Source: an uncultured Clostridia bacterium
GTDB lineage: Bacteria > Bacillota > Clostridia > Oscillospirales > Ruminococcaceae
Reading direction: 5' to 3'
Assembly: GCA_947632025.1 (NCBI GenBank)
Contig: CANRNN010000001.1
Span: forward strand, 310,001-374,000
DNA: 64,000 bases
Below the pieces are notes generated by a model. That model worked only from the letters and a program-made list of their open reading frames with translations. It did no database searches and had not been told where the DNA came from. Below are positions 11,328-46,668 of this stretch, one piece after another; position 1 is the stretch's first letter, and every line of letters begins with the position of its first letter. The position numbers and the translations under genes are program-made.

Positions 11328-14300
11328 TTATGCTGTTTGTTTAAGCAGCTCCTCGACAGACTCAGGGGGCTTTTTCGGGATAGCCTTTTCGGTTTCGTCG
11401 GTCTTGTTTACGGCGTCGATTATCTTCTCGCTTTCAATGCTCAGAGCTTTGGCTGATTTGAACGAGCTGAAATCCACTTTCATAAGCGATTCGGTGGTTT
11501 GCATATTCACTTTAAGAAGCTCGAAGAAATTTGTTATGCTGCCGTTTATGTTGTTATAGGCGTTTTTCAGGCGCGTATACTCCGAGGCGGCGTTCTTTTT
11601 GCCTGTGAACTGCGACCCTCTGCCTTTTATGCTGAACGAACTGAACCCGTAGGAATTTTTCAGGTCGTCCTCGAACCATTCTCCCCTTTCGAGAGCATTC
11701 CGGCGTTTGGAAGCCTGCTCGAGCGTGTTTCTCAATGTTTTTTCAAACCCCGCCCAGTTGGTTACCTCGAATTCCGGGGTTAAATAGTTTTTCGCAGCGT
11801 TGTAATAGGAGTCTGTCAGATTGCCGAGAATTCCTTTAAGCCATGTTTTCCGCGCCGACAATACATTTTCGGTAAGAGCGACGTTTTCTACGGACTTGTA
11901 CTGATCCGCCTTTGCTGAAATCATACTCTGAACATGCCTGTTCTGAACCGACAAAAACTCCGTAAAGCCGCCTATGCTCGACGACATCTGCACTCCCTCG
12001 ACCTCGGTTTTTAAAAGCTTTTCCTTTTGTTTTTGCTTTTCTTCAAGAAATTTTTGGTATTCCTGCTTCTGCTTGGCGTTTTTCGACTGACGTTTTGAGT
12101 TGTCATTGTCAAGAGCTTTGATTTTTTCTTCTGTATCGTCAATTTCCATCTGAACGTCTGCAAGCTTGTTGTAACAGTTATCCTGAAGCGCGGAAAGCGA
12201 CTCTAAAGCTTCCTTGAAAATTTTATCGTCGTTGGTTTTGCTTTTGCTCTTGGAAGCGGCAGCTTTGGGGTCTTTTGCAAGCATTTTATGAAACGCCGTA
12301 AGCGAACCCTGACTTTCGTTCAGTCGAAAACTCTCCCAACTTTTGCTGCCTTTTAGTTTGTACACCTTAAGCATATTTGTAACCGCAACAGGGTCAAGCT
12401 CCGACAGCTTATTTATCGCGGGATCGTTGGGGTCGTCAAGCATTGCTTTTACGCGCTTCATAAATTCCGCATATTCTTTCGCAGTAATTCCGGTTTCGGT
12501 GACCGCAGAATTTTCCGCTTCGGCTTCGGTGTTTTCGCTCTCGCTTTCGGGTTGTTTTTCGGCGCGCTGTTTGCCTAGGATAACATCGTTTGCCTGCTGC
12601 GACTGCAGTTCGATATTTTCGAGAGCCTCGACTTCCTTAAGGTTTTTCTCGCCCTCGTCAGCCTTGTTCGCCAGACGCTTTTTAATCAACGCCATAAGCT
12701 TATAGGCTTCCATGGAATTATCCATACCCTGCTTGCGTATATCTTTCAGCTTCTCATACAGCGAACCTAAGCCGGTTATGGTCTTGTCGTTCATAAGCGC
12801 GTCAAGACCTATGACGTTGCCTTCCGTCACCTTCGAGCAGATATACTGCACCGATTCCATATCCCTTTTCAGAGAATCGTAAGTTGTGCCGAATTCATTT
12901 ATCTGCTCCTCAACATGGTCGATATGGAATTTTCTGAGAAAATCATTTTCTTCGCTGTGGATAAATTTCCACATGTTATCTTCGTACTTCACGTTTCCGT
13001 TGAACATGACTTTACCGAGTTCCAAGGTCATAATATTCCACGAATGATACACTGAAAGCGACTTGTCCTTTGCAATAAATGCGGGAATTCCTGCTTTTGC
13101 GCCCGCAATCACTTCCAGCGCGAACTTAAGCGCGGCTTCAACATTGTAATTGACGGTAGTTTGCTCACGGTCAAGCGCGAAACTATGAAAAAACGGCAGC
13201 GACGGGTCGTGCGTAAACTGCGAATTTGCAGTTAATGAAGCGTTTCCGTCGGCGATAATATTTCCCTCAAGTTTTACAAAGGTGTTAAAATCTTTAATCC
13301 CGAGCGTAAGCGTTAATCCGATGCCCGCTCCGACCGCACCGGAAACTTTTCCGCCAATTGAACCTTTGAACGTGGTAATTCCCGATTCGCCCTTTGAAAC
13401 GTTAGCCGCCGCACCCATCGAAGCCTTAAATCCCGCGTCGGCATGAAAATTCACTCCTGCCGACAAGCACGGCACTATCGGGAAATTAAGTTCCAATTCG
13501 GCAATGCGCCCCATGGACGTCTTGCCTTCTTCTTGTTCTTCCGGAAAACTCTTTTCCGCTTTAAGACCGACGCCAAGCCCGTTTGTGGAGTCGTATTTAA
13601 AATCGCCTGTTATGCCGTCGGCAAATTTGAATGTCTTATTAAAACTCTGAATGGAAAAATCTTCCGGATGTATGGTATCAATACCGTCTTTGGTGATATT
13701 AAGCGTTTCAAGGCGAATTTTCATGTCGGGCATTTGTTTTAAAAATCCCGCAAGAACGGGACTCATTCCCTTAAACTGCATCAGGTCATCAGACGCCTCG
13801 TGCGCTAGCGTAACTCCCGTAAGCGTAATCCCTTGTTCGGTTTTTTTTGCGGATTCCACCCCGCCTTTTCCCCAGCTTCCGAAGTCAAGCGCGAAATCCG
13901 ACAGTTCGTTCACCGTGATATTGTCCTTGCCGATGGAAAGCGACATTGTCCCGCTGAGAGCTTTAAGCAACGAGCTGTCGCCGCTCTCGTAAGAAAGCGT
14001 GAAATCAAGCCCGAGGCTTTTATTGACAAGATCGTAAGAAACTTTCGGATCTACCAGATGAACATTTTTGAAAAGCTTTGCGTCGCCGGTGAACTGCATA
14101 CCCAGCCCCTCGACCGAAAAACCGTCCGTGCCGAATTTGAGTTTATCGAGAGTAAACGCCGCGCTGTCCATACCGCAGAATGCCGCGATACGCCCACCTA
14201 ACTCATCGTTTGATACGCTGAGTGTTTCAAAACTGCTGCTGAAACCCGTCGTTGACAGCGTTATAACGGCGTTTTCGGCTTCCACCGCAAATGGACCGAT

Positions 14301-16328
14301 ATTTGTCGAAAAAGTGCTTGCCTCAATATCCAAAGAGGGCTGGTCGATATTAAGCGTGAACGAAAGCTTTTGAAGATCTGCGTTGGTGTTTGCGTCAAGC
14401 GGAACCTGAACACTGCCGTCGGCGGGAGTTTTCTCCGGCGCGCCGCCCTTGTTTACCTTGACGGTGATTTCCGGCAGCTCTTTTCCTTTGAATTTCGCCT
14501 TTTCGAGAGTTACAGAAAGGTTAGCAAAATCAAAATTACTGTTGCCGTAGGTAAGATTTTCCGCATGGAAAACGCCGATTCCGCCGAGAGACGGGAATAA
14601 TTTTGAAATATCCGCCGAAAGATCGAACTCTCCGAACGTCGTAACTCCGCCCCCATAGGAAAAATTGGTTACCGCGGCAGTGGCAATTTCTTTATTATTT
14701 ATTACAAAAGCTGCCGAAAGCCCGCCTTCAAGCGATGCGGAGATACTCGACCCCGACGCGTCGGCAGTGCTTACCTCGTTTCCTGCCGAATTGCCCTCGG
14801 CAGCCGCACCGCCGCCCCCGCCCGCGCTTTTATGGTACGAAACCGTTGCGGTTGCACCCTCCGGAGCATGTATCTTAAACATATCGCCATCATAATCCAC
14901 AATCACTCCGACAGTTGCGGAAAGGTCCATTCCCGACTCGTTTACCGAGCCCGAAAATTTTCCTCCCAAAAACGTAAAATTGTCGGAAACGGTAATTTGG
15001 GGAACATCCGCGCTGATACTTTCAACCGTAAACTTCTCCGCGGCACAGTTTAAATTCGTTATATTCGCCGTGGCTTTCGGAGTGTCCTCTCCCTCGCCCA
15101 TAGCAAGTTCGCCGCTTGCCTGCGCTATGGAAAATCCTGCGGCGTATACTGTTATCGCGGTCTGACCGACGGTAAGAGGAATATTCTCAAATGTCGCGCC
15201 ATCCGTGTCCAGCGACAGCGATTTTTCCGAGAAATTTATGTTTACCGAAGCATTTGCGGCAGTCATCGGACCTACCGTGACAGATGGAAATTTCAAGGTG
15301 AAATTGTCGGCGGATATTTTCCCGTTTGCGTAGGTAAGGTCAAAGTTTACGGGAATATCATTTGCCGCAAGCTCTTTTCCGAAAGCCGTAACGGAATATT
15401 TTCCGTCTCTGACGTGATAGATATAATTGCCGTCGTCTTTAATTTCACCAACAGCCGGAGTTTTGCCGATAATGGAGAATACGTTCCCTATCGAATAATC
15501 TATCGTGGCGTCGGACATATCAATTTTATAACTCAAGCCTCTTTCGCCTTTGAAAAGGACATACTTCTTCTGCACGGATTGTATAATATCCGCCGCAGAG
15601 TCGGCAAATCCAAGCGCGTTTTTTGTAGACTCCCCGACAATGCCCTCGGGGGTTATTTTAAGAGTACCCTCAAACGGATCGTCGTTGGCATTCGGGATTG
15701 CCGGGGACTTTATAGCAAGCTTCCGCGGGACAATCTCGTCAAGCGAAAGCGTGCCGCCTATTCCCGTGGCGAGAGTTATGTTGTTTTCGGTGTATAAAAT
15801 TCCGTCGGGACCGTCTACCGATATCGACGACATACCGCTGTTCACGCCTATGACAACTTCTTCACCGAAATCAAGCTTTTCGTGCCGAAATTTCACCTTG
15901 CCATAGGCTAGAATCTGGTTATTATTGTCGCGCCGGAGAACTATAGGCTCAACCGCCGTCCAATTGACATTCGCTCCGAGAACGGACACAGTACCCTCTG
16001 TCGCAATGGCTTTGCCGTTTTCGTTCTTCACCATGAACGTCAGCATTCCGATTGTAAGATTGCCGTCGGGAACAGCGTTTGACCCGCCCGCAGAAGCTCC
16101 CGAAGCTCCTGCTCCTCCTGCTCCTCCTGCTCCTCTTGCTCCTCCCGCGGACTGTCTGCCTATCTCGTTATTCTTCTCGTTTGCCCAGTCGCGCGCCTCC
16201 TCAACCGTTTTCGTAGGGTCGTCGTCGGGCGGCAGCTGCCGTTTTCCCGTATTCTGCGCCGAAGCGGGGGCTTTTTCTTCGGAGGATTTTCCCACCCCGA
16301 AAATTTTTTTCAATCTTTCAAAAGCCAT
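11328..16328 (-). CDS. Giant CIS-linked protein: disordered N-terminus, beta-repeat body, helical C-terminus (candidate cargo)
   Basis: A 1666-residue protein, last gene of the CIS operon, 9 bases after the AAA+ gene, with GAGGTGAGTCT before its ATG. I recognise no family. Visible parts: a basic start (MAFERLKKIFGVGK), a charged disordered stretch, a Gly/Ala/Ser low-complexity linker at about 62-84, then nearly 950 residues of short beta strands with repeating phrases such as VTVGPMTAANASVNI and LTVGQTAITVYAAGFSI. Residues about 960-1110 are glycine-rich, amphipathic and strand-like (VSGAVGAGIGLTLTLGI). From about 1170 to the end it is charged alpha helix and coiled coil. No signal peptide or TM helix is seen. 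In other CIS loci large proteins at the operon end with disordered N-termini are often loaded cargo, so an effector is a reasonable guess. A structural role cannot be excluded. Confidence 0.7.
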   Translation of the reverse strand: MAFERLKKIFGVGKSSEEKAPASAQNTGKRQLPPDDDPTKTVEEARDWANEKNNEIGRQSAGGARGAGGAGGAGASGASAGGSNAVPDGNLTIGMLTFMVKNENGKAIATEGTVSVLGANVNWTAVEPIVLRRDNNNQILAYGKVKFRHEKLDFGEEVVIGVNSGMSSISVDGPDGILYTENNITLATGIGGTLSLDEIVPRKLAIKSPAIPNANDDPFEGTLKITPEGIVGESTKNALGFADSAADIIQSVQKKYVLFKGERGLSYKIDMSDATIDYSIGNVFSIIGKTPAVGEIKDDGNYIYHVRDGKYSVTAFGKELAANDIPVNFDLTYANGKISADNFTLKFPSVTVGPMTAANASVNINFSEKSLSLDTDGATFENIPLTVGQTAITVYAAGFSIAQASGELAMGEGEDTPKATANITNLNCAAEKFTVESISADVPQITVSDNFTFLGGKFSGSVNESGMDLSATVGVIVDYDGDMFKIHAPEGATATVSYHKSAGGGGGAAAEGNSAGNEVSTADASGSSISASLEGGLSAAFVINNKEIATAAVTNFSYGGGVTTFGEFDLSADISKLFPSLGGIGVFHAENLTYGNSNFDFANLSVTLEKAKFKGKELPEITVKVNKGGAPEKTPADGSVQVPLDANTNADLQKLSFTLNIDQPSLDIEASTFSTNIGPFAVEAENAVITLSTTGFSSSFETLSVSNDELGGRIAAFCGMDSAAFTLDKLKFGTDGFSVEGLGMQFTGDAKLFKNVHLVDPKVSYDLVNKSLGLDFTLSYESGDSSLLKALSGTMSLSIGKDNITVNELSDFALDFGSWGKGGVESAKKTEQGITLTGVTLAHEASDDLMQFKGMSPVLAGFLKQMPDMKIRLETLNITKDGIDTIHPEDFSIQSFNKTFKFADGITGDFKYDSTNGLGVGLKAEKSFPEEQEEGKTSMGRIAELELNFPIVPCLSAGVNFHADAGFKASMGAAANVSKGESGITTFKGSIGGKVSGAVGAGIGLTLTLGIKDFNTFVKLEGNIIADGNASLTANSQFTHDPSLPFFHSFALDREQTTVNYNVEAALKFALEVIAGAKAGIPAFIAKDKSLSVYHSWNIMTLELGKVMFNGNVKYEDNMWKFIHSEENDFLRKFHIDHVEEQINEFGTTYDSLKRDMESVQYICSKVTEGNVIGLDALMNDKTITGLGSLYEKLKDIRKQGMDNSMEAYKLMALIKKRLANKADEGEKNLKEVEALENIELQSQQANDVILGKQRAEKQPESESENTEAEAENSAVTETGITAKEYAEFMKRVKAMLDDPNDPAINKLSELDPVAVTNMLKVYKLKGSKSWESFRLNESQGSLTAFHKMLAKDPKAAASKSKSKTNDDKIFKEALESLSALQDNCYNKLADVQMEIDDTEEKIKALDNDNSKRQSKNAKQKQEYQKFLEEKQKQKEKLLKTEVEGVQMSSSIGGFTEFLSVQNRHVQSMISAKADQYKSVENVALTENVLSARKTWLKGILGNLTDSYYNAAKNYLTPEFEVTNWAGFEKTLRNTLEQASKRRNALERGEWFEDDLKNSYGFSSFSIKGRGSQFTGKKNAASEYTRLKNAYNNINGSITNFFELLKVNMQTTESLMKVDFSSFKSAKALSIESEKIIDAVNKTDETEKAIPKKPPESVEELLKQTA

Positions 16329-16337
16329 AGACTCACC

Positions 16338-18404
16338 TCAGATGTCCGTATTGTCCGAATAAACCGAATATGGTCCAAAATCGGCAGGAGAGATGTTCTT
16401 GCCGAACTTCGCGAACTGTTTTCTCACGGCGCGGACCACGTCCGACATAGAAATGCTGCCGCCGCGCGCCGCTGCCGAAAACGCTGCGGACACGGCTGCT
16501 CCTTTTATCATAGCTCCCGTCATTTCAAAGCGCTCGGCGAGAAAGTTAAGGTCGATGTTCCTGTCGGCGGGAGCCTCTTTCGGGAACGCGTTTTTCCACA
16601 ACTCCATACGAAGTCCCGCGTCAGGCTGCGGAAAGTGGATAATATACGTTATACGGCGCATAAAAGCGTCGTCAATATTCTGCTTGAAATTTGTGGTCAT
16701 AATGATTATCCCGCGGAATTCGTCCATTTTCTGGAGCAAAAACGAAGTTTCAACGTTTGCGTATTTGTCGCGGCTGTCCTTTATCTCGCTGCGTCTGCCA
16801 AAAAGAGCGTCGGTTTCGTCAAATAAAAGCACTGCGCTGCTGCGTTCGGCAATATTGAATACCTCGTCAAGGCTTTTTTCGGTTTCACCGATGTATTTTG
16901 ACATCATCTTTGACAAGTCCACCTTAAAAAGCGCAAGTCCGAGTTCGTTTGCAACTATCGAAGCCGCCATGGTCTTGCCCGTTCCCGGAGAGCCCTCAAA
17001 CAGCATTGAAAGCCCCGTACCCGTTCCTGTTTTCTCCTTGAATTTCCAGCTGTCGTAAACGATGTGGCGATATCTGATATAGTTTATCCCGTCGATTATT
17101 TGCAATTTTTCGCTCTGCGGGAGGATAAGGTCGCAAAGTCTGAACGCCGTCTGTATGCGCGAGGCTTTGTCCTTTAATATCCCCTCCGATTCCGCAAGGC
17201 AGACGGATTTTAAGATCTCGTCCGTTATTTTTTCGCAGCCCAGAAGCCCTGCGGCGCGTTCACATTCAAGAATTATCTTTTTTATCTTCGACGGCGGGAA
17301 ATCGTAGGACGCGGCAAGATTCGCGACCGTTTCGGGATTTTCCACCGGAACGGAAAATCTGTCCCATATCCTCTGCTTATCCTCGAACGGCAGATCCTCC
17401 AGACGCAGCCTGCACACGGAAAGACTGCCAAGCTTTACGGGGCTTTCCGCTGTCATAAAAATGAGCTTCTGTGAGGAAATAAGCCCACGCGCCGCACGCT
17501 CGGCTTTTTCGGAATTCTTCTCGGTAACGCCGACAAAGCAGCAGACTGCCCGCTGCAATATCGTTTCGCGTTCAAGCTCAGATATGGCGAGAGAAAGCTC
17601 GTTTTCGGGAATTTTGTCGACATCGGCGAATATCACGTTCTTGCGGCAGATAATTCCGCAGTGTTTTACAAAAAACCTCTTGCCCGTACCCTTTGCGCCC
17701 TCTATCAGAAGCACCCCGCAGTTCTCGTCCGAAAACGCTCTCTGCGCGGCGGAAAGCTCCTTTTCCCTGCCGCAGATCTCGTCCGTCTGCTCGTTCACGG
17801 CAAATGTGTGCGAATACGGAAGATCGTGAAGAAACTCCATTCCGAGAAGCAGGTCAAGCACGCGGCGGCGGGGTTTCAGCTCCACACAGGAAAGGTCGGT
17901 TTCACCCGCTTTGACCTCAAAAAGCATCGGGACATAGCTTGTAAGCGCGTTGTACGCGGCGCGTTCATCGCCCGATAAAAATACCGAGCATACGCTTGAA
18001 AGCGTCGGGAAAGTCATATTTATGTCATTGTTGATATACGCGAATACCTCGGCAAGCTCCGAGTGCAGCGACCGCAGAAAACACGCGGCAAACGCGAGCC
18101 GTTCTCCCTCGCTCATGGAAAACGCCGAACATACATAATCAAGCGGGAGGAATATCTCGGTGTTTTTCGTTTTCTCAGAAATTTCCGAGAGCAGAGTGTC
18201 AAATTTGCGGCACTCCTCTCCCGCGAGAACGAACGGAAGCCCGTCAAGACCGCTCTCCGAACGTACCGCACGAGCAGCGCGACTGTAAAGCCTTTCTTCG
18301 GGAGCGGCAGCTTTCAGGCGCTCAACATACGCGCCGAGAATTATCCGCACCGCGTCGTAATAATCGCGATATTCGCCATAAACCGAGTTATACCCGCCGC
18401 TCAT
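16338..18404 (-). CDS. CIS-associated AAA+ ATPase (Afp15/Pvc15-like)
   Basis: A 688-residue cytoplasmic ATPase. The C-terminal half is a complete AAA+ module: Walker A GSPGTGKT at 471-478, Walker B LLFDETD near 525-531, sensor-type MTTNFKQNID and arginine-finger region DDAFMRRI. The N-terminal half has a helical domain and a second, decayed P-loop domain (IEGAKGTGKRFF, about 234-245) without a clear Walker B. This two-part layout is that of the AAA+ ATPases of extracellular contractile injection systems, which are needed for assembly or cargo loading. GAGGAATAAGCC precedes the ATG. It sits 3 bases after the YbjN-like gene and 9 before the giant gene, consistent with acting on that product. 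Confidence 0.9.
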   Translation of the reverse strand: MSGGYNSVYGEYRDYYDAVRIILGAYVERLKAAAPEERLYSRAARAVRSESGLDGLPFVLAGEECRKFDTLLSEISEKTKNTEIFLPLDYVCSAFSMSEGERLAFAACFLRSLHSELAEVFAYINNDINMTFPTLSSVCSVFLSGDERAAYNALTSYVPMLFEVKAGETDLSCVELKPRRRVLDLLLGMEFLHDLPYSHTFAVNEQTDEICGREKELSAAQRAFSDENCGVLLIEGAKGTGKRFFVKHCGIICRKNVIFADVDKIPENELSLAISELERETILQRAVCCFVGVTEKNSEKAERAARGLISSQKLIFMTAESPVKLGSLSVCRLRLEDLPFEDKQRIWDRFSVPVENPETVANLAASYDFPPSKIKKIILECERAAGLLGCEKITDEILKSVCLAESEGILKDKASRIQTAFRLCDLILPQSEKLQIIDGINYIRYRHIVYDSWKFKEKTGTGTGLSMLFEGSPGTGKTMAASIVANELGLALFKVDLSKMMSKYIGETEKSLDEVFNIAERSSAVLLFDETDALFGRRSEIKDSRDKYANVETSFLLQKMDEFRGIIIMTTNFKQNIDDAFMRRITYIIHFPQPDAGLRMELWKNAFPKEAPADRNIDLNFLAERFEMTGAMIKGAAVSAAFSAAARGGSISMSDVVRAVRKQFAKFGKNISPADFGPYSVYSDNTDI

Positions 18405-18407: not shown

Positions 18408-18833
18408 TTATTCCTCACTGTCGGAGCAGGCAGCCTTTATCATTTCAGCCGCGAACGCGTCCATAATCCCCTCGTGAAGCGTAAGAACGCTGTCCATAAG
18501 TTCTGTGAAAGCGCCGCCGTCAAGACTTTCTGGGACAAATACCGACGTTCTGCAGCGCGCCTCACCCGCACCCTCGCCGTCGGTGACAAGCTCGAAGCTA
18601 CCGTAGCGGATATTGACGTTCAGAGCGTTTAATGCTTTTATAAACGTGTCATATCTTCCGACAGGTACCTTTGTCGGAATTATCGAATAGATGTTGATTA
18701 TACTGTCGTCGTCTGTTCTTACAGCAGTCGTCCAAAATGTGTCCTTTCCGTTCACGCCGAAGCTCAAGATATTATCGTTCTCGATATATCTGATATTTTT
18801 GCTTTCATAGTACGCTTTGATCTTTTCTTTCAT
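18408..18833 (-). CDS. YbjN-like (type III chaperone-fold) protein
   Basis: A 141-residue acidic protein of about 6 strands between helices (MKEKIKAYYESKNIRYIE ... FWTTAVRTDDDSIINIYSI ... FELVTDGEGAGEARCRTSVFV). The pattern of N-terminal helix, antiparallel sheet and a long C-terminal helix is that of YbjN/CesT-like folds, some of which are secretion chaperones. Its ATG overlaps the stop of the upstream TPR gene (ATGA) and it is 3 bases ahead of the AAA+ gene. A chaperone for a CIS cargo such as the giant protein is a plausible but unproved role. Confidence 0.6.
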   Translation of the reverse strand: MKEKIKAYYESKNIRYIENDNILSFGVNGKDTFWTTAVRTDDDSIINIYSIIPTKVPVGRYDTFIKALNALNVNIRYGSFELVTDGEGAGEARCRTSVFVPESLDGGAFTELMDSVLTLHEGIMDAFAAEMIKAACSDSEE

Positions 18834-24376: not shown

Positions 24377-24416
24377 GGTCCTCACCTCTTTCGTTTCGGA
24401 TTTTTTGGAAAAGCGT

Positions 24417-24803: not shown

Positions 24804-24825
24804 AATTACATTCTCTCCCCGCAAA

Positions 24826-38752: not shown

Positions 38753-39421
38753 TTACCACAATTTCGGAATTTTTATCTTCAGACCCGACACAATATCGTT
38801 TAGCGGATTTACGATATTGTTCGCCGACGCAAGCGATTTCCACTTGTCCGCATCGCCGCATTCCTCGAACGCTATCTGCCACAGCGATGTGCTTTCGTCC
38901 ACGGCACGGACCTTGGTATTTCTCGACCCGCCGAACGCGTCGGATTTCGTGAGTTTTGACGCGTCAAGCACCGACTTGAACGTAACGTCCACTGCCGCTC
39001 TCACAGGCTTTCCGCTCGGCAAAAACATTGTAAATTTCTGCGTTACGTCCGTCACCACGCCCTTGAATTGCAGCGACCCCCACTTGAATGTGCATACGGG
39101 CGGGCGGTTAAGCGAGGTATCCGTTTTCGTGAGCTTGTAGATCTTTTCAGTAAGCGCCGTCACGTCCGTCATATCGCTGTCCTTTACGGGAACGACTTTC
39201 TTTTGTGACGGGTCGTATGTCGGCGGCTCGTAGGTGCTGAACATAAGCTGTATCGTAAGAGTATCCTGCGAACCCGAAATATACTGTGTTATCGGGCTGT
39301 CAAGCCCCGGAACGCTTACCGAGCTGTAATTCACGCTTGTCGAAAGACTGTACTCCGACGGATTGAACATCACCCGAATATCGCCGCCCGTTTCTTTGCT
39401 TATCACCGCTTTTTCCAGCAA
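38753..39421 (-). CDS. LysM-domain tube-initiator/baseplate protein (Afp7-like, CIS tube protein family)
   Basis: A 222-residue protein with TTG start behind GAGAGGTG. Residues about 8-165 have the CIS tube protein fold (VMFNPSEYSLSTSVNYSSV, DTLTIQLMFSTYEPPTYD, PPVCTFKWGSLQFKGVVTDV). The last about 50 residues are a LysM domain (STSLWQIAFEECGDADKWKS, NPLNDIVSGLKIKIP). In Afp/PVC and related particles this protein joins the tube to the hub and its LysM contacts the baseplate. It lies between the candidate ruler and the hub gene, as usual. Confidence 0.93.
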   Translation of the reverse strand: MLEKAVISKETGGDIRVMFNPSEYSLSTSVNYSSVSVPGLDSPITQYISGSQDTLTIQLMFSTYEPPTYDPSQKKVVPVKDSDMTDVTALTEKIYKLTKTDTSLNRPPVCTFKWGSLQFKGVVTDVTQKFTMFLPSGKPVRAAVDVTFKSVLDASKLTKSDAFGGSRNTKVRAVDESTSLWQIAFEECGDADKWKSLASANNIVNPLNDIVSGLKIKIPKLW

Positions 39422-39435: not shown

Positions 39436-42400
39436 TCAGTATATTCCGTGACGCTTTCCCGCAAGCGTAATGTCCTGTTCAATGCTGCTTTTAATTTCCT
39501 TTTCGAGGACGGCGCGTTCGCTTTTCAGCATAAAGCGCTTAGTCATTTCCTCCTCGGAGGTCTTGACGCTTTCAAGCTGACGGCTTACGTCGTCGAGCTT
39601 ACTTTTAAGCCCCGAAAGCCGCCCGACCACCTCGTCTGAATTATCGGAGAAGCCCTTTGGCTGCACGGCGTAATTTACCGTTATAGCGCTCCCTGACGAG
39701 TCGAAATACTCTTCCGTATAGAACAGCTCTGCCGCGGAATAGTCCGTCCGCTCGGTCTGCTCGGAGGTCTGCCTGAATATTCGTTCGGTCGGCGAATTTG
39801 CCGATTTTGTAAGATGTATAAGTAGCTCCCGCTCGGCGCGTGTCGTCTGGCGCTCGACGGAATTCCTCCTCAAAGCGATAAAGCTCATTTTCGGCAAAAT
39901 TTTTTCAATATCCCGCTCCCGCAAAATTTCCCGTGAGAGATTTGAGAAATTTAAGGAATTTGAGAAATTTGATAATGCCGAGTACGATGAAAACTTTGAA
40001 AGCTCCGACAACTCCGAAACGCCGTATACAAGCCGTCCAGAAAACTCCCTGTCTGCGGGAGAATACTCTCCAAAATTTGTCAGAAACGTCAAATCTCTCT
40101 CGCTGCCCGTATAAGGGTAAGCAAGCCGCAGAACATTCAGCGTTTCTCCTATGCTTTGCACCGCCGTGCTGTCGGAGAACGCCCCGAAAAGCTCCCGCGT
40201 AAAACGCTCCCGCACGCCCGTGTCGGACTTTTCCGAAAATCTCCGCTTGGACAGCGTTTTTGCAAGCTCCGACAGCCGCGAAATATAAAGCCTTTGCATT
40301 TCGGAAACACCCTCTGTGTTCGACACACTATCGGAAAGGCGCGATATTCTTTCGAGAAAACGCCCGATGTCTGACACGTCGTTTGACGTGACCGATGCGT
40401 TTGACGCAACTGACGCGCTCTCCGTGCCGTTTAGAACGGAATTTCTAAGCTCGTAAAGCTCCCGCCGAAGAGATCTTATCTCACTTTGCACAGCATTATC
40501 CCGCGCGTTCGGCGCTTCGGAATATTCCAACTCCGTTTTTTCCGCAAGCTCGTAGAGTTTGTTTTCAAGTGCGGAAAACCTTTCAGACGAAAACTGCTCC
40601 TCGGAGGAAATTTCCGAAAGCTCCTCGGAAATCTCTTTAAGCTGCGAAAAATACCGCCCCTCGGACTTTTCCGAAAATCTCCGCTCGGAAAGCGTTTTTG
40701 CAAGCTCCGACAGCCGCGAAATATAAAGCCTTTGCATTTCGGAAACACCCTCTGTGTTCGACACACTATCGGAAAGGCGCGATATTCTTTCGAGAAAACG
40801 CCCGATGTCTGACACGTCGTTTGACGTGACCGATGCGTTTGACGCAACTGACGCGCTCTCCGTGCCGTTTAGAACGGAATTTCTAAGCTCGTAAAGCTCC
40901 CGCCGAAGAGATTTTATCTCGCTTTGTGCCAAATTATTCCCAGCGTTCGGCGTATCGGAATATTCAAGCCGCACTTTTTCCGCAAGCTCGTAGAATTTGT
41001 TTTCGAGCGCGGAAAACCTTTCAGACGAAAACTGCTCCTCGGAGGAAATTTCCGAAAGCTCGTCGGAAATCGCCTTAAGTTCAGAAGAATATCGCCCCTC
41101 GGTCTTTTCCGATAAACTTCGCTCGGAAAGCGTTTTCGCAAGCTCCGATGCGGTTTGCCGCCGTATATCCGCGCTCTCAAAGCGGCGTGTTTTTTCGAGC
41201 GATTCCGCTATCTTTACTAACGTTTCGGGCAGCTCACCGCTGTGATTTTCGCACAGCTCCAGAACCGAAAGCAATCCGCCTGCTGTTTGCTCAAACTCCG
41301 ATAAATTCTCCGAAAAAATTTCGGTTCGGCTCGAATTTTCCGTTTCCGAAAGCGCACTTTCAAACTCCCGCAAAAGCCCTCTGCTATCAGAAAAAGAACG
41401 CAGACGTTCAAGCGTTTTGGTAAGCGTCCTGCCGTCATACTCGGAGAACAATTTTCCCACGCGCTCTGAAAAACGCTCGTACTCCGAGCCGTTTTCAGCG
41501 GTGAAAAGCGCTTCGAGCTTGGAATATCCGCCCGAACGCTCAAGAATTTCGCGGAAGCTGCCGCTGCCGTTTTTCGCCGTAAAATCAGCTATCTCCGTCA
41601 AGAGCGTCCGTGCCTCGGCATTTTCCGAAGCTGCCGAGGAAAGCAGCACCCGAATAGCTTCAAGGCGGTTTTCGGGCTTGACGCTTTCGGCGGCAGAGCG
41701 CATTTCACGAAGTATCCGCTCCGTGCTGCCTACGCCGGTAAATTCCGCATACAACCGTGACAATTCCTTTATCTCATGGTCGGCGGCAGTGCTTATCAGC
41801 CTGCGTATTTCGGCGCATTTTACGGAAATTTCCGACTGACCGTAGTACAGTATCCTTTCGAGCTTTTCAGCCGTGTCAAGGGAAATTCCCGACGGCACAG
41901 CACCGCCTTGAACTTCCCGCAGCTCGCGCACCTTGTTTACGGCAAATTCCGCGAACGACAGCACAAGCTCGCTGTCCGCGCTGTAAAGCTCGTTGGAAAC
42001 ATTCTGAACATCGGGCATGACGTACTCCCTGAAAAGCTCGGACGAGCGTATTTTCTCGCGGATCTGCTCCCACGAAAGCTCCTCCTTGCTTACCTGCCGC
42101 TCCAGAACGGAAAATGCACGTTTTACAAGTTCCTCGGACATTTCCGAAAGTCTTTCGTACTCCCTTTCCGCTTCGCGCAGGACGTTAACCTCGCCCTGCG
42201 ACCGCTCCGAAAGCTGCTCACAGAGCCGCTCCACGCTTTTCAGATCGGCAGCTTCAAAAAACTCGCGCATATCCTTTTCCGACGAGAATACCGAGGACAC
42301 CGTTCCGGCGTTCCCGTAAAAGGAACGCACACTGTTGCTGTCCCTCGATTCCCGACCAAGCTCCCGATAAAACTCACGGAAAAACCTGTTAAGCTCCCTT

Positions 42401-43269
42401 TCGGACGAACGCTCCGCCAGATACTTCAAATCACTTGCCGAGTCTGCGGGAACATTAAGTACTCCGTCCGCTCCCGAACCGTCACGCTCTTTCAATATCG
42501 AGGAAAACAATCCTCTCTCGCGGATAAACCGTCCGATAAAATCGCTCTGACGCTCATTTAAATTCGCGATAAGCACGGAAAATCCGCGGCGAAGCTCCGA
42601 GCCTCGCCGCCGCAATTCTTCGCACCTTAATGCAAGCTCCAAGAACGAGCGGTTGGATTTTACCGTTTTCATCAATTCGGGGTCGCGCTCTGCCATACGC
42701 AGCAGCCAAAAACCCGACGCGCCGAGCGCTCTTGCCGCGGGCAGCACTCGTCCCGCTGCAGTGTATTCACGGACAGACAATGCGCTGCTGCGTGTTTTTT
42801 CGGCATTTTTAATAAGTAGGATATTCTCGCGCAGTTTTTCTCTCAGAGTTTCCAAAGCGTCCGTCGCTTCAACCCTGTTTTCCGACGCTTTTTCGGAAAA
42901 AACGCCATCTGACAGCCGTTCGCAAAGCTCATTATATATTGCCGCGGCAGTACGGTATTCGGGAGAATTTCCGCCGACGCTCAATATATTCCGCACAAGC
43001 GACAGCGTTCCTCTGACATACAGTGAAAGCTGCCCACCGCGCGTTCCGAGTCCGTTTTTCAAAGCGTCAAGGACATTCTCCAGAAGCTCCAGAACGGACA
43101 TTATATCCCCGCGCTCTCCAGCCGCTCCGACGGCGAAAATCAAATCGCCATAGGACGGCTCATACAGCCTGCGTGCCGCGCCGCGCTCCAGTATCCTGCG
43201 GGCAAAATCAAGCCCCGTGCCGCCCGTAATATACCTTTTCGGCTTTATCGGTTTCAGCAATTTATCCAC
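39436..43269 (-). CDS. 1277-residue helical repeat protein, candidate tape measure
   Basis: A very long Ser/Glu/Arg/Leu-rich protein, almost wholly predicted helix, with GTG start (weak AGGG site). I recognise no family. The N-terminus (LDFARRILERGAARRLYEPS) precedes hundreds of residues of heptad-like LSERLSE and ELSEISSE phrases. Residues about 780-1075 contain two nearly perfect tandem copies of a 146-residue unit and the start of a third. The C-terminus (GLKSKLDDVSRQLESVKTSEEEMTKRF) is a coiled coil. It lies between tube 2 and the LysM gene, and the operon has no other long helical protein except the end of the giant last gene. That makes it my candidate for the ruler that sets tube length (the role of Afp14), although Afp14 is normally encoded after the fibre gene. 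Confidence 0.6.
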   Translation of the reverse strand: MDKLLKPIKPKRYITGGTGLDFARRILERGAARRLYEPSYGDLIFAVGAAGERGDIMSVLELLENVLDALKNGLGTRGGQLSLYVRGTLSLVRNILSVGGNSPEYRTAAAIYNELCERLSDGVFSEKASENRVEATDALETLREKLRENILLIKNAEKTRSSALSVREYTAAGRVLPAARALGASGFWLLRMAERDPELMKTVKSNRSFLELALRCEELRRRGSELRRGFSVLIANLNERQSDFIGRFIRERGLFSSILKERDGSGADGVLNVPADSASDLKYLAERSSERELNRFFREFYRELGRESRDSNSVRSFYGNAGTVSSVFSSEKDMREFFEAADLKSVERLCEQLSERSQGEVNVLREAEREYERLSEMSEELVKRAFSVLERQVSKEELSWEQIREKIRSSELFREYVMPDVQNVSNELYSADSELVLSFAEFAVNKVRELREVQGGAVPSGISLDTAEKLERILYYGQSEISVKCAEIRRLISTAADHEIKELSRLYAEFTGVGSTERILREMRSAAESVKPENRLEAIRVLLSSAASENAEARTLLTEIADFTAKNGSGSFREILERSGGYSKLEALFTAENGSEYERFSERVGKLFSEYDGRTLTKTLERLRSFSDSRGLLREFESALSETENSSRTEIFSENLSEFEQTAGGLLSVLELCENHSGELPETLVKIAESLEKTRRFESADIRRQTASELAKTLSERSLSEKTEGRYSSELKAISDELSEISSEEQFSSERFSALENKFYELAEKVRLEYSDTPNAGNNLAQSEIKSLRRELYELRNSVLNGTESASVASNASVTSNDVSDIGRFLERISRLSDSVSNTEGVSEMQRLYISRLSELAKTLSERRFSEKSEGRYFSQLKEISEELSEISSEEQFSSERFSALENKLYELAEKTELEYSEAPNARDNAVQSEIRSLRRELYELRNSVLNGTESASVASNASVTSNDVSDIGRFLERISRLSDSVSNTEGVSEMQRLYISRLSELAKTLSKRRFSEKSDTGVRERFTRELFGAFSDSTAVQSIGETLNVLRLAYPYTGSERDLTFLTNFGEYSPADREFSGRLVYGVSELSELSKFSSYSALSNFSNSLNFSNLSREILRERDIEKILPKMSFIALRRNSVERQTTRAERELLIHLTKSANSPTERIFRQTSEQTERTDYSAAELFYTEEYFDSSGSAITVNYAVQPKGFSDNSDEVVGRLSGLKSKLDDVSRQLESVKTSEEEMTKRFMLKSERAVLEKEIKSSIEQDITLAGKRHGIY
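40225..41160 (-). repeat. 438-bp in-frame tandem duplication inside the candidate tape measure gene
   Basis: The same sequence recurs with a period of exactly 438 bases: GCAAGCTCCGA at 40262, 40700 and 41138. About 220 bases after the first two of these points are almost identical; the rest of each unit is diverged but alignable. 438 is 146 codons, so the frame is kept. The near-identity of part of the unit implies a recent duplication or gene conversion. Confidence 0.92.
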
Positions 43270-43283: not shown

Positions 43284-43691
43284 TCAGGAGATACGTATAC
43301 CCGTATGTGCCAGAGTAAATTTCCTGATAAGAACACCGCCGCCCAGAGCGTTCAGCTCGCCCAGTTCCCACGCCGTAACTATCCCGCTCTCAATGGAATA
43401 GCGCTCGGCGGCGCTGCCGTTTTTCATAAGCGTCACCGTGATGTCGCGCAGCTTTACGCCGAGCGAAAAGCACCCCGCCTGCGCCCATTTCGAGCTTGTA
43501 ACGCCCTTTTCAAACGTTAACGTTCCCGCCGAAGTCGAGGGCTTGGGCATTATGACTATCCCACCGCCGCCTTCGGGGTAAGCGTCGTATTCCACCGACT
43601 GTGAAAGTCCGGAAACTCTCGAAAAATTAAGCTCCATTCCGTACAGCGTCACGCTGAACACACCGTTTGACAGATATTCCTCCGCGCCCAC
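43284..43691 (-). CDS. Second tail tube protein (T4 gp19-like)
   Basis: A 135-residue tube protein. The GTG at 43691 is the likely start because AAAGGAGG lies 7 bases upstream; the open frame extends 7 codons further through that site. The gp19-type pattern is present: NGVFSVTLYGMELNFSRVSGL, EYDAYPEGGGG, and the late KWAQAGCFSLGVKLRDITVTLM and FTLAHTGIRIS. CIS operons usually have two tube paralogues, one main and one near the baseplate. This one, encoded next to the LysM/ruler genes, is probably the baseplate-proximal ring protein. Confidence 0.88.
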   Translation of the reverse strand: MGAEEYLSNGVFSVTLYGMELNFSRVSGLSQSVEYDAYPEGGGGIVIMPKPSTSAGTLTFEKGVTSSKWAQAGCFSLGVKLRDITVTLMKNGSAAERYSIESGIVTAWELGELNALGGGVLIRKFTLAHTGIRIS

Positions 43692-43715
43692 AGCCGTACC
43701 TCCTTTAAACACGCG

Positions 43716-43973
43716 CTAGACGGAAAAGATGTTTTTCTTCTCCTCGCCGCCCGATGCAGCGTTTATTTTAGAGTTTATTTTTGAGATCTCGCCGCACCAG
43801 CGATTGCGGTCGGTATGCGACAACTGCATTATCTCCTCGCGGCTCCAGTGCGTGTAATATGCCAGAAATGCACATTCCTCGTACAAACGCTCTTTCGGAT
43901 ACAGCCTCAGTCGGCGGCTTCCATAAAATTTACGGGAACGTCCACCTCCTGCCCGCAGTTCGGGCATACGCAC
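43716..43973 (-). CDS. DUF6760-like small CIS protein, possibly made by -1 frameshift
   Basis: The conserved part (LYPKERLYEECAFLAYYTHW ... REEIMQLSHTDRNRWCGEIS) is the short helical DUF6760-type protein found after the tube genes in many CIS operons. The given coordinates are the open frame limit. Its first 67 bases overlap the upstream gene in the -1 frame and encode an Arg-rich, non-domain-like stretch. Possible starts are GTG 43973 and ATG 43967 inside the neighbour (GAGG nearby), or entry by -1 frameshift at the AAATTTT heptamer 43931-43925, which joins the two frames exactly. In the second case it is the C-terminal part of a gpG-GT-like fusion. Confidence 0.75.
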   Translation of the reverse strand: MRMPELRAGGGRSRKFYGSRRLRLYPKERLYEECAFLAYYTHWSREEIMQLSHTDRNRWCGEISKINSKINAASGGEEKKNIFSV

Positions 43974-44278
43974 CTGTACCTCGGCATTTCCATAGAGTTT
44001 ATCCTCTCGTAGAAATCCTGAAGATACGCAAGATCCATCGTGAACAGTCCCTCAATGGTCTTGGTGGTTATCATCGGCAGCGTCCCCAGCCGCGTGATAA
44101 CTCTCGTAAGCAATATTATCGTCAGATACCCCGGATTTTGCTGGACTTTCGGGTCGCGCAGCGGCAGTATCTCGTCCGCCGCGTTCGCAAGACGCATAAC
44201 GCCCTCCCGATGAACATTCCCTTCATGGTCGACGTATCCTCTCGGAAGAACAAAGTTAAATTCCGTTTCAAATGCCAT
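43907..44278 (-). CDS. CIS tail assembly chaperone-like protein with C-terminal zinc ribbon
   Basis: A 123-residue protein. The ATG at 44278 has GGAGG 8 bases upstream (a TTG at 44284 is too close to it). The body (FETEFNFVLPRGYVDHEGNV, VMRLANAADEILPLRDPKVQ, NPGYLTIILLTRVITRLGTL) matches the conserved small protein between the tube genes of CIS operons, related to T4-type baseplate/assembly proteins. The C-terminus carries a two-cysteine knuckle with neighbours (RYRCVCPNCGQEVDVPV), as in many such proteins. The position, size and the overlapping -1 frame after it recall phage tail assembly chaperones (lambda gpG/gpGT), which load onto the tape measure. Confidence 0.75.
   Translation of the reverse strand: MAFETEFNFVLPRGYVDHEGNVHREGVMRLANAADEILPLRDPKVQQNPGYLTIILLTRVITRLGTLPMITTKTIEGLFTMDLAYLQDFYERINSMEMPRYRCVCPNCGQEVDVPVNFMEAAD
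43925..43950 (-). promoter_or_regulatory. Candidate programmed -1 frameshift site with upstream SD-like stimulator
   Basis: In the zero frame GTA-AAT-TTT contains the X-XXY-YYZ heptamer A-AAT-TTT (43931-43925), five codons before the TGA. A -1 slip continues as TAT-GGA-AGC into the DUF6760-like frame. AGGAGG (43950-43945) ends 13 bases upstream, the arrangement that stimulates -1 shifting in dnaX. No valid start codon for the second frame lies at initiation distance from this AGGAGG. Confidence 0.5.
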
Positions 44279-44340
44279 TTTCAAAGCCTCCGCATCTGGT
44301 CATTCAAAAATTCGCGCTCCTGCAGCCGCAAAGACCACAT

Positions 44341-44425
44341 TCAATGAAAAGCGACCGCCATCAATTTAAAACCGCCTGCCCTCAACGGCAAACTATTGCT
44401 CTCAATGAAAAACTGCCCGCCCTTG
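44341..44425. repeat. Degenerate 20-21-bp repeats in the tube 1 / chaperone spacer
   Basis: TCAAT-type cores followed by AAAA and a GCC-rich end recur at 44341, 44361, 44382 and 44402. The spacer (44285-44476, 192 bases) is the longest within the operon; its other content is the hairpin at 44413-44439. Confidence 0.5.
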
Positions 44426-44440
44426 AACGGGACGGGCAGC
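44408..44440 (-). terminator. Intra-operon terminator/attenuator after sheath and tube 1
   Basis: On the minus strand CTGCCCG pairs with CGGGCAG around an inner CCC/GGG stem and GTTCAA loop, followed by TTTTTC. It lies 37 bases after the tube 1 stop and before all baseplate genes. Partial termination here would give more sheath and tube than baseplate mRNA, or the stem would protect the 3' end of a processed sheath-tube mRNA. Confidence 0.75.
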
Positions 44441-44476
44441 CGAGAAGCAGAGCTATCTCTGCGGCAGATTTGCCTA

Positions 44477-44908
44477 TCACAAAATTCTGGTCATACCCTC
44501 GTGGGCAAGCTCGATAGTTTCGAGAGCCGCCTCGGACGCGGTCGCGTTGAAATCGGGAGCGGTGTACTTTACGGGCCACGCTTCCTCGACCTGCCATGTT
44601 GCCACGTCGTTTCCGTCGTTGTCCATAAGTGTTATTGCCAGAGTTTTCCGCTCAGGCTCTTTATCGTAGGCTATCGTCCACCAGTCCCACAGCTCGGTTG
44701 CGTTCTGCTCGGAAACAGCGCGCTTAAGAGTGATATTGCCGTATTTGCGCAGACCCGACACCTTAAGCGGGGTAGTTTTCTGACTTCCCTCGCGGTATTC
44801 GTAAACATCAACGTTCGCGTCAAAGCCCGTCACTTCCGAAAAGAACTCCGACAAGCCGTCACATTCAACTCTGAATCTGAATTTTCCGTAAGGATAAATT
44901 CCAGCCAT
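44477..44908 (-). CDS. Main tail tube protein (T4 gp19-like, Hcp-fold)
   Basis: A 143-residue tube protein, ATG with AAAGGAT about 10 bases upstream. Family pattern: YPYGKFRFRVECDGLSEFFS, EVTGFDANVDVYEYREGSQK, LRKYGNITLKRAVSEQNATE, LWDWW, and LTLMDNDGNDVATWQVEEAWPVK-type strand pair ending LAHEGMTRIL. The subunits stack as hexameric rings into the inner tube pushed out when the sheath contracts. It follows the sheath gene by 23 bases and precedes an attenuator, in line with a need for many copies. Confidence 0.95.
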   Translation of the reverse strand: MAGIYPYGKFRFRVECDGLSEFFSEVTGFDANVDVYEYREGSQKTTPLKVSGLRKYGNITLKRAVSEQNATELWDWWTIAYDKEPERKTLAITLMDNDGNDVATWQVEEAWPVKYTAPDFNATASEAALETIELAHEGMTRIL

Positions 44909-44931: not shown

Positions 44932-46668
44932 TTATTCGGAACCGCCCGTTTTCTGCGTTATTCTGAAGATAACGAACTCAGCGGGCTTTACGGGTGCTAC
45001 GCCGATAACGCAGATAAGTCTGCCGTTGTCGATGTCCGCCTGCGACATGGTAGAAGGACCTATTTCGCAGTAAAACGCCTCTGCTTCGGTCGTGCCCGCA
45101 AGAGCGCCGTCCCTCCAGACGCTGCGCAAAAATCCGTCTATGGTTCTCTTTACGCGTGACCAGAGCTTTTCATCGTTAGGCTCGAACACTACCCAGTTGG
45201 TGTTCGCTTTTATTGACTCTTCAAGGAAGATGAACAGTCTGCGGACGTTAACATACTTCCAGCTCGGATCGGACGATGCCGTTCTCGCGCCCCACACTCT
45301 TATTCCCTGTCCGGGGAAGGAGCGGATAAGGTTTACGCCCTTGGGATTCAAAATATCCTGCTCGCCCTTGTTGAACGGAACGGAAAGTCCCGTACAGCCG
45401 CGAACGACCTCGTTCGCTGGAGCTTTATGTACTCCTCTGGAGTTATCGCTTCTCGCGTAGATACCTATGACCGATCCCGACGGCGGAATATTGATATTCT
45501 TCTTGTCAAGCGGATCGTACACCGTCAGCCACGGGTGGTACATCGCAGCGTAGGTGCTGTCGATAACGTTGCGTGCGGTTATCATCTCGTCCGTTTTGGA
45601 GAGCTCCTCGTCCATATCCAGCACGGCAAAGCGGCTTCCTAAGCTCTCGCAGTGAGCGACGAGCGTAAGCTGAACATTCGGGTCGGTTATACCCGGCACC
45701 GCCATAATGGACACCACGTCATTATCGAGGAATGCCTGTATGCCCGTGCGCTTGCCCGGACCGTTGTCAACTCCCATAAACGTATCGGGAGTTACGCTCG
45801 CATTCGAGCCGTTCGAGCCGCCCTTAAGCTCCACGGAAATCACGTCCGCTCCGTCCGACAAAGCCGTAAACGGATCATTTTCGGGCATACCCTCCGCCGA
45901 TGCTTTTATGACAGCGGACCTTGCCGTTTTATTCTCGATAAAATTCGGCGAGGTTACGTTAAACGAGCATTCGGCATAAAACTCGTCGATGTCGTCGTAT
46001 TTAGCTTCAAGGTTGAACTCGCAGGTGGAAATGGTAATTTTCGGCACGAGAGCCGTATCGACAGCCTCTCCTGCGAAAGCGCTCTCGAACTCTATCACAT
46101 TATCCTGACTTTTAACAACCTTGTTGTAGGAAACATTCGCGCCGTCCGACAGCGCCACCACATCGCCCGCGTCGAATCCGACGGACTTTTTCACCTTATA
46201 TTTTCCCTCGCCAAGATCCTCAAGTATCTGAGTTTTCGCCTTAGAGGCAGGAGTGATGATTACCTTTATATCGTCGCCCCATGCGCCCTCGTCGGCAGCT
46301 GTTATCTTCAATATAGGACTGTCCGCGGGTACGCACCCTTCCGACGCCTTAGCGTCTGCGGGAGCGACTCTCGAAATGAACGCCCTCGACCCGCCGTTCA
46401 GGAAGAAATGCTCTACGGCATATGCCAGAAAGCGGTTTTTCCCGAATTCCGAAGCGGAGAGATACCCGCCGTATTTTCTCTTGAAATCCGCGAAATTTGT
46501 CACAAGCTGCGGCACCCCGCCCACGGGACCCCGCACAGCCAATCCCACGAAGCCCGCCGTACTTGTTCCGACGCCCTCCATAGGCTTGCCACCCGATTCA
46601 AATTCCTCCACATACACACCCGGTGATAAATATTCCGCCATAATCGCCGATCCGTCCGCACGGCGCAC
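44932..46668 (-). CDS. Contractile tail sheath protein
   Basis: A 578-residue sheath protein, the only one in the operon. GTG at 46668 is chosen since AAGGAGG lies 8 bases upstream; the classical family start (MAEYLSPGVYVEEFESGG) is an ATG at 46641, nine codons later, which has no good ribosome site. Typical segments: STAGFVGLAVRGPVGG, NFADFKRKYGGYL, AYAVEHFFLNGGSRAFISRV, and the conserved C-terminal domain (RSFPGQGIRVWGARTASSDP, WKYVNVRRLFIFLEESI, WVVFEPNDEKLWSRVKR, DGALAGTTEAEAFYC). Residues about 110-330 are the variable surface domain. Contraction drives the tube through a membrane. It is the first gene of the operon, about 150 bases after the predicted transcription start. Confidence 0.96.
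   Translation of the reverse strand: MRRADGSAIMAEYLSPGVYVEEFESGGKPMEGVGTSTAGFVGLAVRGPVGGVPQLVTNFADFKRKYGGYLSASEFGKNRFLAYAVEHFFLNGGSRAFISRVAPADAKASEGCVPADSPILKITAADEGAWGDDIKVIITPASKAKTQILEDLGEGKYKVKKSVGFDAGDVVALSDGANVSYNKVVKSQDNVIEFESAFAGEAVDTALVPKITISTCEFNLEAKYDDIDEFYAECSFNVTSPNFIENKTARSAVIKASAEGMPENDPFTALSDGADVISVELKGGSNGSNASVTPDTFMGVDNGPGKRTGIQAFLDNDVVSIMAVPGITDPNVQLTLVAHCESLGSRFAVLDMDEELSKTDEMITARNVIDSTYAAMYHPWLTVYDPLDKKNINIPPSGSVIGIYARSDNSRGVHKAPANEVVRGCTGLSVPFNKGEQDILNPKGVNLIRSFPGQGIRVWGARTASSDPSWKYVNVRRLFIFLEESIKANTNWVVFEPNDEKLWSRVKRTIDGFLRSVWRDGALAGTTEAEAFYCEIGPSTMSQADIDNGRLICVIGVAPVKPAEFVIFRITQKTGGSE

Follow-up and report, generated by a model that had tools for sequence, protein, structure and literature searches.

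A contractile injection system operon of an uncultured Clostridia bacterium and the conserved membrane proteins encoded within it

This work asks how contractile injection systems (CIS) could be docked, and their firing controlled, in cells that have a thick wall and no outer membrane. For such cells, CisA in Streptomyces (PMC12237407) and a candidate anchor in haloarchaea (PMC11566945) have been described. Here, we analyzed a 64-kb stretch of DNA, the window, from an uncultured Clostridia bacterium of the family Ruminococcaceae (positions 310,001 to 374,000 of contig CANRNN010000001.1, assembly GCA_947632025.1; the genome amounts to 2.36 Mb in 31 contigs). A CIS operon of 25 genes, all on the minus strand, runs from window position 46668 down to 11328 (35,341 bp) and holds sheath, tube, gp25, J wedge, hub/spike, cap, and AAA genes in one cluster (Pfam, NCBIfam, and PHROGs), which makes it a CIS in the broad sense. 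The first-pass annotation of the window had read a complete core in one leftward operon, as the Pfam and PHROGs matches bear out, together with membrane genes that are the subject of this work. At the level of sequence and fold, the locus combines this complete operon with three conserved membrane families of predicted topology, a dead kinase and a dead cyclase domain, and receptors that are swapped between relatives.

A pseudokinase, a MORN protein, and a receptor

The first part of the membrane module is a 277-aa protein with the fold of the protein kinase superfamily, encoded by a gene that adjoins a Cis13-like baseplate gene. It does not qualify as an active kinase, given that the HRD Asp is found in 0 of 41 members and the DFG Asp position holds D in 2 of 41 (catalytic columns placed by eye). 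Described at first as tail-anchored, it is actually a pseudokinase with a single transmembrane (TM) helix, and in some relatives it has an outside LysM domain. EssB/YukC of type VII secretion likewise has a cytosolic pseudokinase domain, one TM helix, and an outside part, but the 41 Clostridial members gave no YukC match at E ≤ 0.1 (profile PF10140 is absent from the 22 families matched by any of them at this level). EssB does not appear among the 50 fold matches listed either, which does not speak for its absence. The window pseudokinase had no match in 50,697 phage records. In three loci of one Clostridia clade (L093, L104, and L112; G and L labels denote genomes and loci of our samples), a one-TM protein of ~190 aa and a two-TM protein of ~265 aa come after the Cis13-like gene at ~11.8-13.2 kb, where the pseudokinase usually sits; a TPM domain was detected in the two-TM protein of L093.

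The second part is a one-TM MORN-repeat protein. Both this protein and the TPR protein of the same operon had been named from the sequence alone, and Pfam recovers both (PF02493 and PF13431). TM calls and topology come from a hydropathy-window scan. The K+R count of the MORN proteins covers 57 of 60 open reading frames (ORFs), leaving out one without a TM helix and two whose first hydropathy peak lies outside residues 15-110.

The third part is a receptor, present in the window as two paralogues of 861 and 805 aa. An AlphaFold model of the former, submitted to a fold search, agreed with the earlier reading as a propeller/TM/pseudo-cyclase protein. Its cytosolic domain has the class III nucleotidyl cyclase fold without the features of an active enzyme, each metal-binding Asp position holding D in 1 of 33 sequences (columns placed by eye), and its C-terminal helices are TPR-like by eye only, with no family match.

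This dead cyclase domain is constant among relatives, while the input part differs. The fused propeller-sensor-HAMP receptor, recognized by size and TM count, occurs in 32 of the 57 loci with at least 7.6 kb downstream, and L060, L064, and L071 have a two-TM HAMP protein without propeller. Elsewhere, a separate soluble cyclase-type protein is accompanied by a SpoIIE-type phosphatase (11 loci by similarity, several of them metagenome-assembled genomes, MAGs, from ruminant stomachs; Pfam confirmed SpoIIE and HAMP for L057 and L091), by a propeller-MFS protein (L067 and L087, and L117 in part), or by a substrate-binding protein and an MFS protein (L063). G124, G274, and G139 likewise have SpoIIE genes in the vicinity of the AAA gene. 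The label of Cache-like sensor refers to weak Pfam matches, below the cut-off, in single relatives. A receptor that is swapped (propeller, Cache-like, SpoIIE phosphatase, or MFS) over a dead cyclase that is kept points to signal gating, and a constant adaptor under changing receptors would be expected if the adaptor faces the machine.

Occurrence of the module in relatives and outgroups

We scanned 295 genomes of the order, the source genome included, for the pseudokinase (threshold, ≥39 bits), the part to which the order-wide association refers. A sheath like that of the window is present in 16 of them, its own included, and the pseudokinase in 11 of these 16 compared to 0 of the 279 sheath-less genomes (Fisher p = 1.4e-16). 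Of the 15 other sheath genomes, 9 (G119, G097, G251, G139, G218, G079, G067, G124, and G274) have two or more of the module's three parts inside the sheath cluster, and all nine have the AAA+ gene as well; in G218 and G079 the module parts are upstream of the sheath. The sheath contig of G105, G114, G193, and G260 ends early, and their pseudokinase is found on another contig. In a sample of the phylum, 7 of 398 genomes had the pseudokinase at ≥66 bits, and six of the seven a PF17482 sheath. At the gene level, the association between module and CIS is strong.

A second survey, made with the Cis13-like protein, took the best 80 of 345 relatives; it overlaps the order sample in two cases (G097/L120 and G251/L106). 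By record label these 80 loci are Bacillota except L066 (an unplaced “Bacterium D16-51”) and L071 (Bacteroidales), the latter falling among Clostridia, possibly as a mislabelled MAG or a transfer. Among the 54 loci for which 9 kb or more of downstream sequence is in view (the other 26 have <9 kb and were left out), the pseudokinase was found in 46, the MORN protein in 48, the dead cyclase domain in 46, and all three in 44. Because the ORFs used to train the pseudokinase models came from beside the Cis13-like gene, the figure of 72/72 is partly by construction, which is not the case for the whole-genome scans.

At least one module part stands alongside in 48 of the 54 loci and none in the remaining six. 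That these six truly lack the module was ruled out, since in five of the genomes pseudokinase and receptor adjoin each other at another place, which leaves only the 1.1-Mb MAG of L093 without the module. In G688 this cluster shares a contig with the Cis13-like gene, ~120 kb away, and in G689 it is on another contig; both clusters also have MORN, cap, AAA, and g228-type genes, and that of G688 has DUF4280 as well. In G691 (Fusibacter), the sheath operon follows directly on a set of pseudokinase, receptor, MORN, cap, g228-type, and AAA genes; G690 has a MORN gene after the receptor and G692 only pseudokinase and receptor in the stretch read. Apart from L114 (Fusibacter, on a long branch), the six loci are placed on the tree amid module-bearing ones, six of which form the sister group of their clade. 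Close homologous loci without the membrane genes, the outcome against which the first-pass annotation had proposed to be judged, are thus not what was found, and recurrence in the CIS loci of relatives rules out a quirk of the source genome. Its attribution to gut bacteria was too narrow, as records of Heliorestis, Desulfocucumis, Fusibacter, and Marinisporobacter carry the system too.

Two plasmid loci of ~41 kb served as outgroup control. With the same profiles, the CIS on a Streptomyces clavuligerus plasmid (distinct from the S. coelicolor locus) showed most of the core (sheaths, tubes, LysM initiator, hub, spike, gp25, J proteins, tail I, and cap) as well as three Cis13-like proteins. The CIS on a Deinococcus psychrotolerans plasmid has most of the core. 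None of the three module families was found in either locus among all ORFs of at least 60 aa (the AAA gene is not in view). Across 19 stretches of the S. clavuligerus plasmid CIS (18 annotated coding sequences and one unannotated), hydropathy peaks appeared in the sheath and one J protein only. Next to the sheath gene, the D. psychrotolerans plasmid (L148, 11637-16415) encodes a vWA protein and what is annotated as a Ser/Thr kinase with an FHA domain, a further case of a CIS accompanied by phospho-signalling genes; the pseudokinase profile did not match this kinase.

The operon and its surroundings

The features of the operon are listed in Table 1. Among the core parts, a PDB search with the hub led nowhere, and tail protein I scored 19.6 bits against Pfam Tail_P2_I, just under the cut-off of 20.6. 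The protein with the Cis13-like N terminus, left unnamed in the first-pass parts list, is Cis13-like in part, its 70.7 bits comparing with a curated cut-off of 370 for the CIS13 family (NCBIfam NF053767), and is probably a peripheral baseplate protein. The 1277-aa protein contains a near-identical internal repeat (146-aa spacing, 92% over 120 aa) and is a candidate tape measure or scaffold; in relatives its slot holds proteins of 144 to 1651 aa, varying in length as a length-setting tape measure might. The best NCBIfam match of the AAA protein was the anti-phage ATPase IteA, far below the cut-off (111 versus 510 bits).

Table 1. Features of the injection system operon, in the order of transcription, followed by putative regulatory sites
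Feature	Window positions	Strand	Evidence and remarks
Sheath	44932..46668	-	Pfam PF04984, PF17482; likely true start is an ATG 27 bp in
Tube 1	44477..44908	-	PF06841, E 2.7e-40
Tail assembly chaperone-like protein	43907..44284	-	PHROG 508, E 3.9e-6; found in most relatives
DUF6760 small tail protein	43716..43973	-	PF20546, E 9.8e-17
Tube 2/tube initiator layer	43284..43712	-	PF06841, E 1.8e-11
1277-aa E/S/R/L-rich protein	39436..43269	-	Between tube 2 and LysM protein, as in relatives
LysM tube initiator (Cis7/Afp7 type)	38753..39421	-	PF19266, E 1.3e-31
Hub	37646..38734	-	PF24032 (YQBQ), E 8.5e-7
Spike (Phage_base_V)	36823..37593	-	PF04717, E 1.2e-16
gp25 sheath initiator	36412..36813	-	PF04965, E 4.7e-24
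Baseplate wedge J (Cis11 type)	33453..36374	-	PF04865, E 7.7e-8; TIGR02243, 52.3 bits, below cut-off
Second J-type wedge	31462..33405	-	PHROG 6 baseplate wedge, E 2.4e-11
Tail protein I/Cis12 C-terminal part	30394..31428	-	TIGR02242, 59.2 bits (cut-off 51.85); CIS12_fam, 74.7 bits, below cut-off 860
Protein with Cis13-like N terminus	28708..30381	-	CIS13_fam, E 1.3e-19, 70.7 bits over residues 9-111
Pseudokinase, 277 aa (module part 1)	27832..28665	-	Kinase domain residues 1-212; predicted TM ~236-254; outside tail with conserved IG motif
One-TM MORN-repeat protein (module part 2)	26081..27796	-	PF02493, E 1.5e-28; TM ~80-98, repeats predicted outside
DUF4255 cap (Cis16/Pvc16)	25516..26064	-	PF14065 (Pvc16_N), E 1.3e-16
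228-aa protein	24826..25512	-	Adjoins cap gene in relatives as well
DUF4280 PAAR-like tip	24417..24824	-	PF14107, E 1.3e-35
861-aa receptor (module part 3a)	21800..24385	-	TM, propeller 31-315, TM-TM, sensor domain, TM, HAMP-like region, dead class III cyclase, C-terminal helices
805-aa receptor paralogue (module part 3b)	19362..21779	-	Divergent C terminus; L053 orthologue matches both receptor halves
One-TM TPR protein	18830..19456	-	PF13431, 24.5 bits (cut-off 24.4); TM 13-31
141-aa soluble protein	18408..18833	-	No family; within the 80 named loci, matched in L061 only
AAA+ ATPase (Cis15/Afp15 type by place)	16338..18404	-	PF00004, E 3.2e-29
1666-aa protein	11328..16328	-	No family by Pfam or PHROGs; follows AAA gene
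Promoter-like site upstream of sheath gene	46828..46857	-	TTGACA-18-TAAAAT, 11/12; consensus match only
Terminator-like 12-bp stem in the gap after tube 1	44411..44441	-	Consensus match only

Genes of the operon overlap slightly or are separated by at most 52 bp, with the sole exception of a 192-bp gap after tube 1. The terminator-like stem in this gap might act as a leaky early stop, a possible dosage device yielding more sheath and tube than baseplate; such stems numbered 10 in the region against 5.0 expected, and promoter-like sites 4 against 4.0 expected from shuffles. The five membrane genes occupy 23% of the 35,341 bp, and 37% together with the 1666-aa gene; the first-pass annotation had put the share of unusual proteins, this one included, at about a quarter. 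This gene does belong to the operon, but it is outside the conserved membrane module, as homologues were found in 1 of the 295 genomes of the order, its own; by its place after the AAA gene, it is a cargo candidate. Proteins of the eCIS_core type are encoded behind the AAA/tip genes in G251, G097, and G067; in L128, one follows the Cis13-like gene. Neither the 141-aa nor the 228-aa protein matched a family in Pfam, PHROGs, or NCBIfam; in a Streptomyces CIS, the place of the latter is held by a gene annotated as “carboxypeptidase-like regulatory,” with no profile match between the two.

By Pfam, the flanks are ordinary chromosome, with sigma factor, HisRS-like, HAD, and AddB-like genes on one side and response regulator, PocR-type histidine kinase, epimerase, and MCP genes on the other. 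No capsid, portal, terminase, integrase, or holin family was detected by Pfam among 40 window proteins (the far right, e.g., 54430-58164, lies outside the scan), and with PHROGs, among 10 proteins, the only match to head, packaging, integration, or lysis functions was an “endolysin” that corresponds to the LysM stretch of the tube initiator. A prophage or tailocin remnant was rejected on this absence among the scanned proteins, which had also been noted at first pass. The PocR-type hybrid histidine kinase and response regulator (7538-11180) lie directly downstream of the 1666-aa gene on the same strand, and response-regulator/kinase-like matches were also seen near the clusters of L109, L118, and L122. 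A TIR-TPR protein on the plus strand (981-3218) is possibly a defence or signalling gene.

The sigma gene (46994-47695), 325 bp upstream of the sheath gene, was considered as a dedicated CIS regulator and rejected; its neighbourhood looks incidental because close homologues are present in the sheath-less G031 and G201 and, in G067, on a different contig than the CIS. In G249, of the same genus, the homologue is split in two (G249:C2:37234-37629 and 85154-85507, ~47.5 kb apart, 70-71% identity each), resembling a sigma-K gene that a skin-like element has split, with an unusual order of the halves.

Proposed docking and firing

Judged by sheath similarity, the window CIS belongs to the Streptomyces/haloarchaeal branch. 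Its best PDB match, 9ezm (435 bits), was deposited with the paper on the haloarchaeal CIS, whose Cis11 is reported as closest to Bacillota, and the second-closest solved sheath, 8bky, is that of S. coelicolor (PMC11566945). Particles of this type VI secretion system (T6SS)-like CIS of Halogeometricum borinquense were described as membrane-bound by cryo-electron tomography and are accompanied by a clade-specific membrane gene (PMC11566945). The candidate anchor, Hbor_38620, is described with six TM helices and a cytosolic domain of ~150 residues (PMC11566945); compared by this description, no six-TM protein was found in the window operon by hydropathy. The available text of that paper, in contrast to what is seen in the Clostridial module, makes no mention of MORN, LysM, receptor, or “kinase.” CisA is described as a one-TM protein encoded just after the baseplate genes, with a cytosolic N terminus and a proposed role as firing sensor and checkpoint, its cytosolic part largely unstructured and its outside domain solute-binding-like (PMC12237407). 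By gene place and topology it is the nearest functional precedent, although the cytosolic part of the Clostridial pseudokinase is a folded kinase domain.

TssNQOPR of the Bacteroidota T6SSiii, conserved membrane genes beside baseplate genes with at least one cytosolic domain meeting the baseplate, is a precedent for a membrane complex found from conserved neighbours (PMC10781749). T6SS have a diderm trans-envelope complex, while the core parts of the window are of the CIS/extracellular CIS (eCIS) type, and Pfam recovered no TssJLM, TssNQOPR, or TssK family from the scanned proteins of the operon (remote homologues were not searched individually). The Afp, PVC, and MAC systems share sheath, tubes, LysM initiator, hub, spike, gp25, J wedges, DUF4255 cap, and AAA, but the window operon is without a recognized fibre family and has conserved pseudokinase, MORN, and receptor genes instead. 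We found no description of a membrane module of this make-up in the open-licence literature accessible, nor is one mentioned in the available text of Geller et al. (PMC8213781), a CIS metagenome survey (PMC12210884), or a review (PMC10598620).

From gene place, topology, and these analogies, we consider that the CIS probably works attached to the membrane of its own producer and is fired by an outside signal. Particles would assemble in the cytoplasm, and the Cis13-like rim of the baseplate would dock onto the pseudokinase domain, on the cytosolic side, of the one-TM protein from the adjoining gene. The outside tail of the pseudokinase, with LysM in several relatives, and the MORN stalk would fix the site in the cell wall, while the receptor propeller and second outside domain would sense a ligand. 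HAMP and the dead cyclase with its helical tail (joined in some relatives by a SpoIIE phosphatase) could then relay a conformational signal to the docked baseplate, upon which the sheath would contract and expel tube, DUF4280 tip, and cargo across membrane and wall. The direction, into a neighbour or as a lethal self-puncture, is the least certain step. The first-pass proposal of a membrane-docked, signal-fired machine fits the topology, the receptor domains, and their swapping, while docking and firing, as well as signal direction and target, are what we infer. In its fullest form, held tentatively and at somewhat less than even confidence, the system may be a receptor-gated, wall-spanning secretion machine of monoderms, a Gram-positive counterpart of the T6SS, in which a pseudokinase hub holds the baseplate, LysM/MORN mark the firing site in the peptidoglycan, and exchangeable receptors trigger contraction through the dead cyclase adaptor on a specific outside cue.

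Other explanations read the same genes differently. If the particles were free and the module, as a counterpart of CisA, recruited and fired them into the cell's own membrane under stress, the outcome would be regulated death as in Streptomyces. The CisA-like place and one-TM topology of the pseudokinase, the S. coelicolor structure as second-closest solved sheath (PMC11566945), and the lack of a recognized fibre family among the operon proteins scanned (Pfam, PHROGs, and NCBIfam) would agree with this. We find it unlikely, however, considering that the cytosolic part of CisA, compared by description, is largely unstructured as opposed to a folded kinase domain (PMC12237407) and that wall-facing LysM and long MORN parts seem needless for self-puncture. 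SpoIIE phosphatases can control gene expression by partner switching, so that the membrane proteins might instead regulate expression, assembly, or release of a classical extracellular CIS freed by lysis, without holding the particle. The core genes are the eCIS set, and eCIS_core cargo-type proteins do occur in relatives (G251, G097, G067, and L128), but the scanned proteins of the operon and its flanks include no holin or lysis family, and the module adjoins a baseplate gene or sits with the cap and AAA genes, so this reading appears quite improbable. A surface-signalling cassette with no relation to the CIS, located in the cluster by chance, might account for the receptor part differing between relatives; it is nearly refuted by a co-occurrence that persists where the module lies apart from Cis13-like genes and by the absence of the pseudokinase (≥39 bits) from 279 of 279 sheath-less genomes.

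Several observations weigh against a docked machine. Docking is inferred from gene neighbourhood, topology, and analogy, and the predicted TM topology comes from a hydropathy scan. LysM is also present in the tube initiator and by itself is no proof of wall binding. Five of the 16 sheath-bearing genomes (G067, G139, G124, G194, and G058) have no pseudokinase match of ≥39 bits; a local profile does detect it in G067 and G139, but all three parts are absent from the stretches read in G194 (a lone sheath gene) and G058 (a distant sheath). Conversely, the fragmented MAG G376 has the pseudokinase and no PF17482 sheath. The genome of L093, a 1.1-Mb MAG, is without pseudokinase and gave a weak HAMP-type match with the receptor profile (39.9 bits), and L128 and L129 have no pseudokinase within view. 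A membrane protein need not be a standing dock, because Streptomyces CIS fire without stable anchoring. The Roseiflexus CIS, described as free in the cytoplasm and without close CisA homologues, indicates that modes differ and is a warning against assuming docking (PMC12998442).

The three named families accompany CIS across Clostridia, among them cultured commensals such as Clostridium sp. ASF356 (L119) and Intestinimonas butyriciproducens An565 (L120), and thereby open docking and signal gating to direct tests in cells of this kind. If the docked, signal-fired machine is real, many Clostridia would carry a contact- or signal-triggered injector of a type otherwise filed with free “extracellular” particles, and contractile injectors would be seen to be controlled in a new way, by receptors exchanged over a dead-cyclase adaptor that stays constant.

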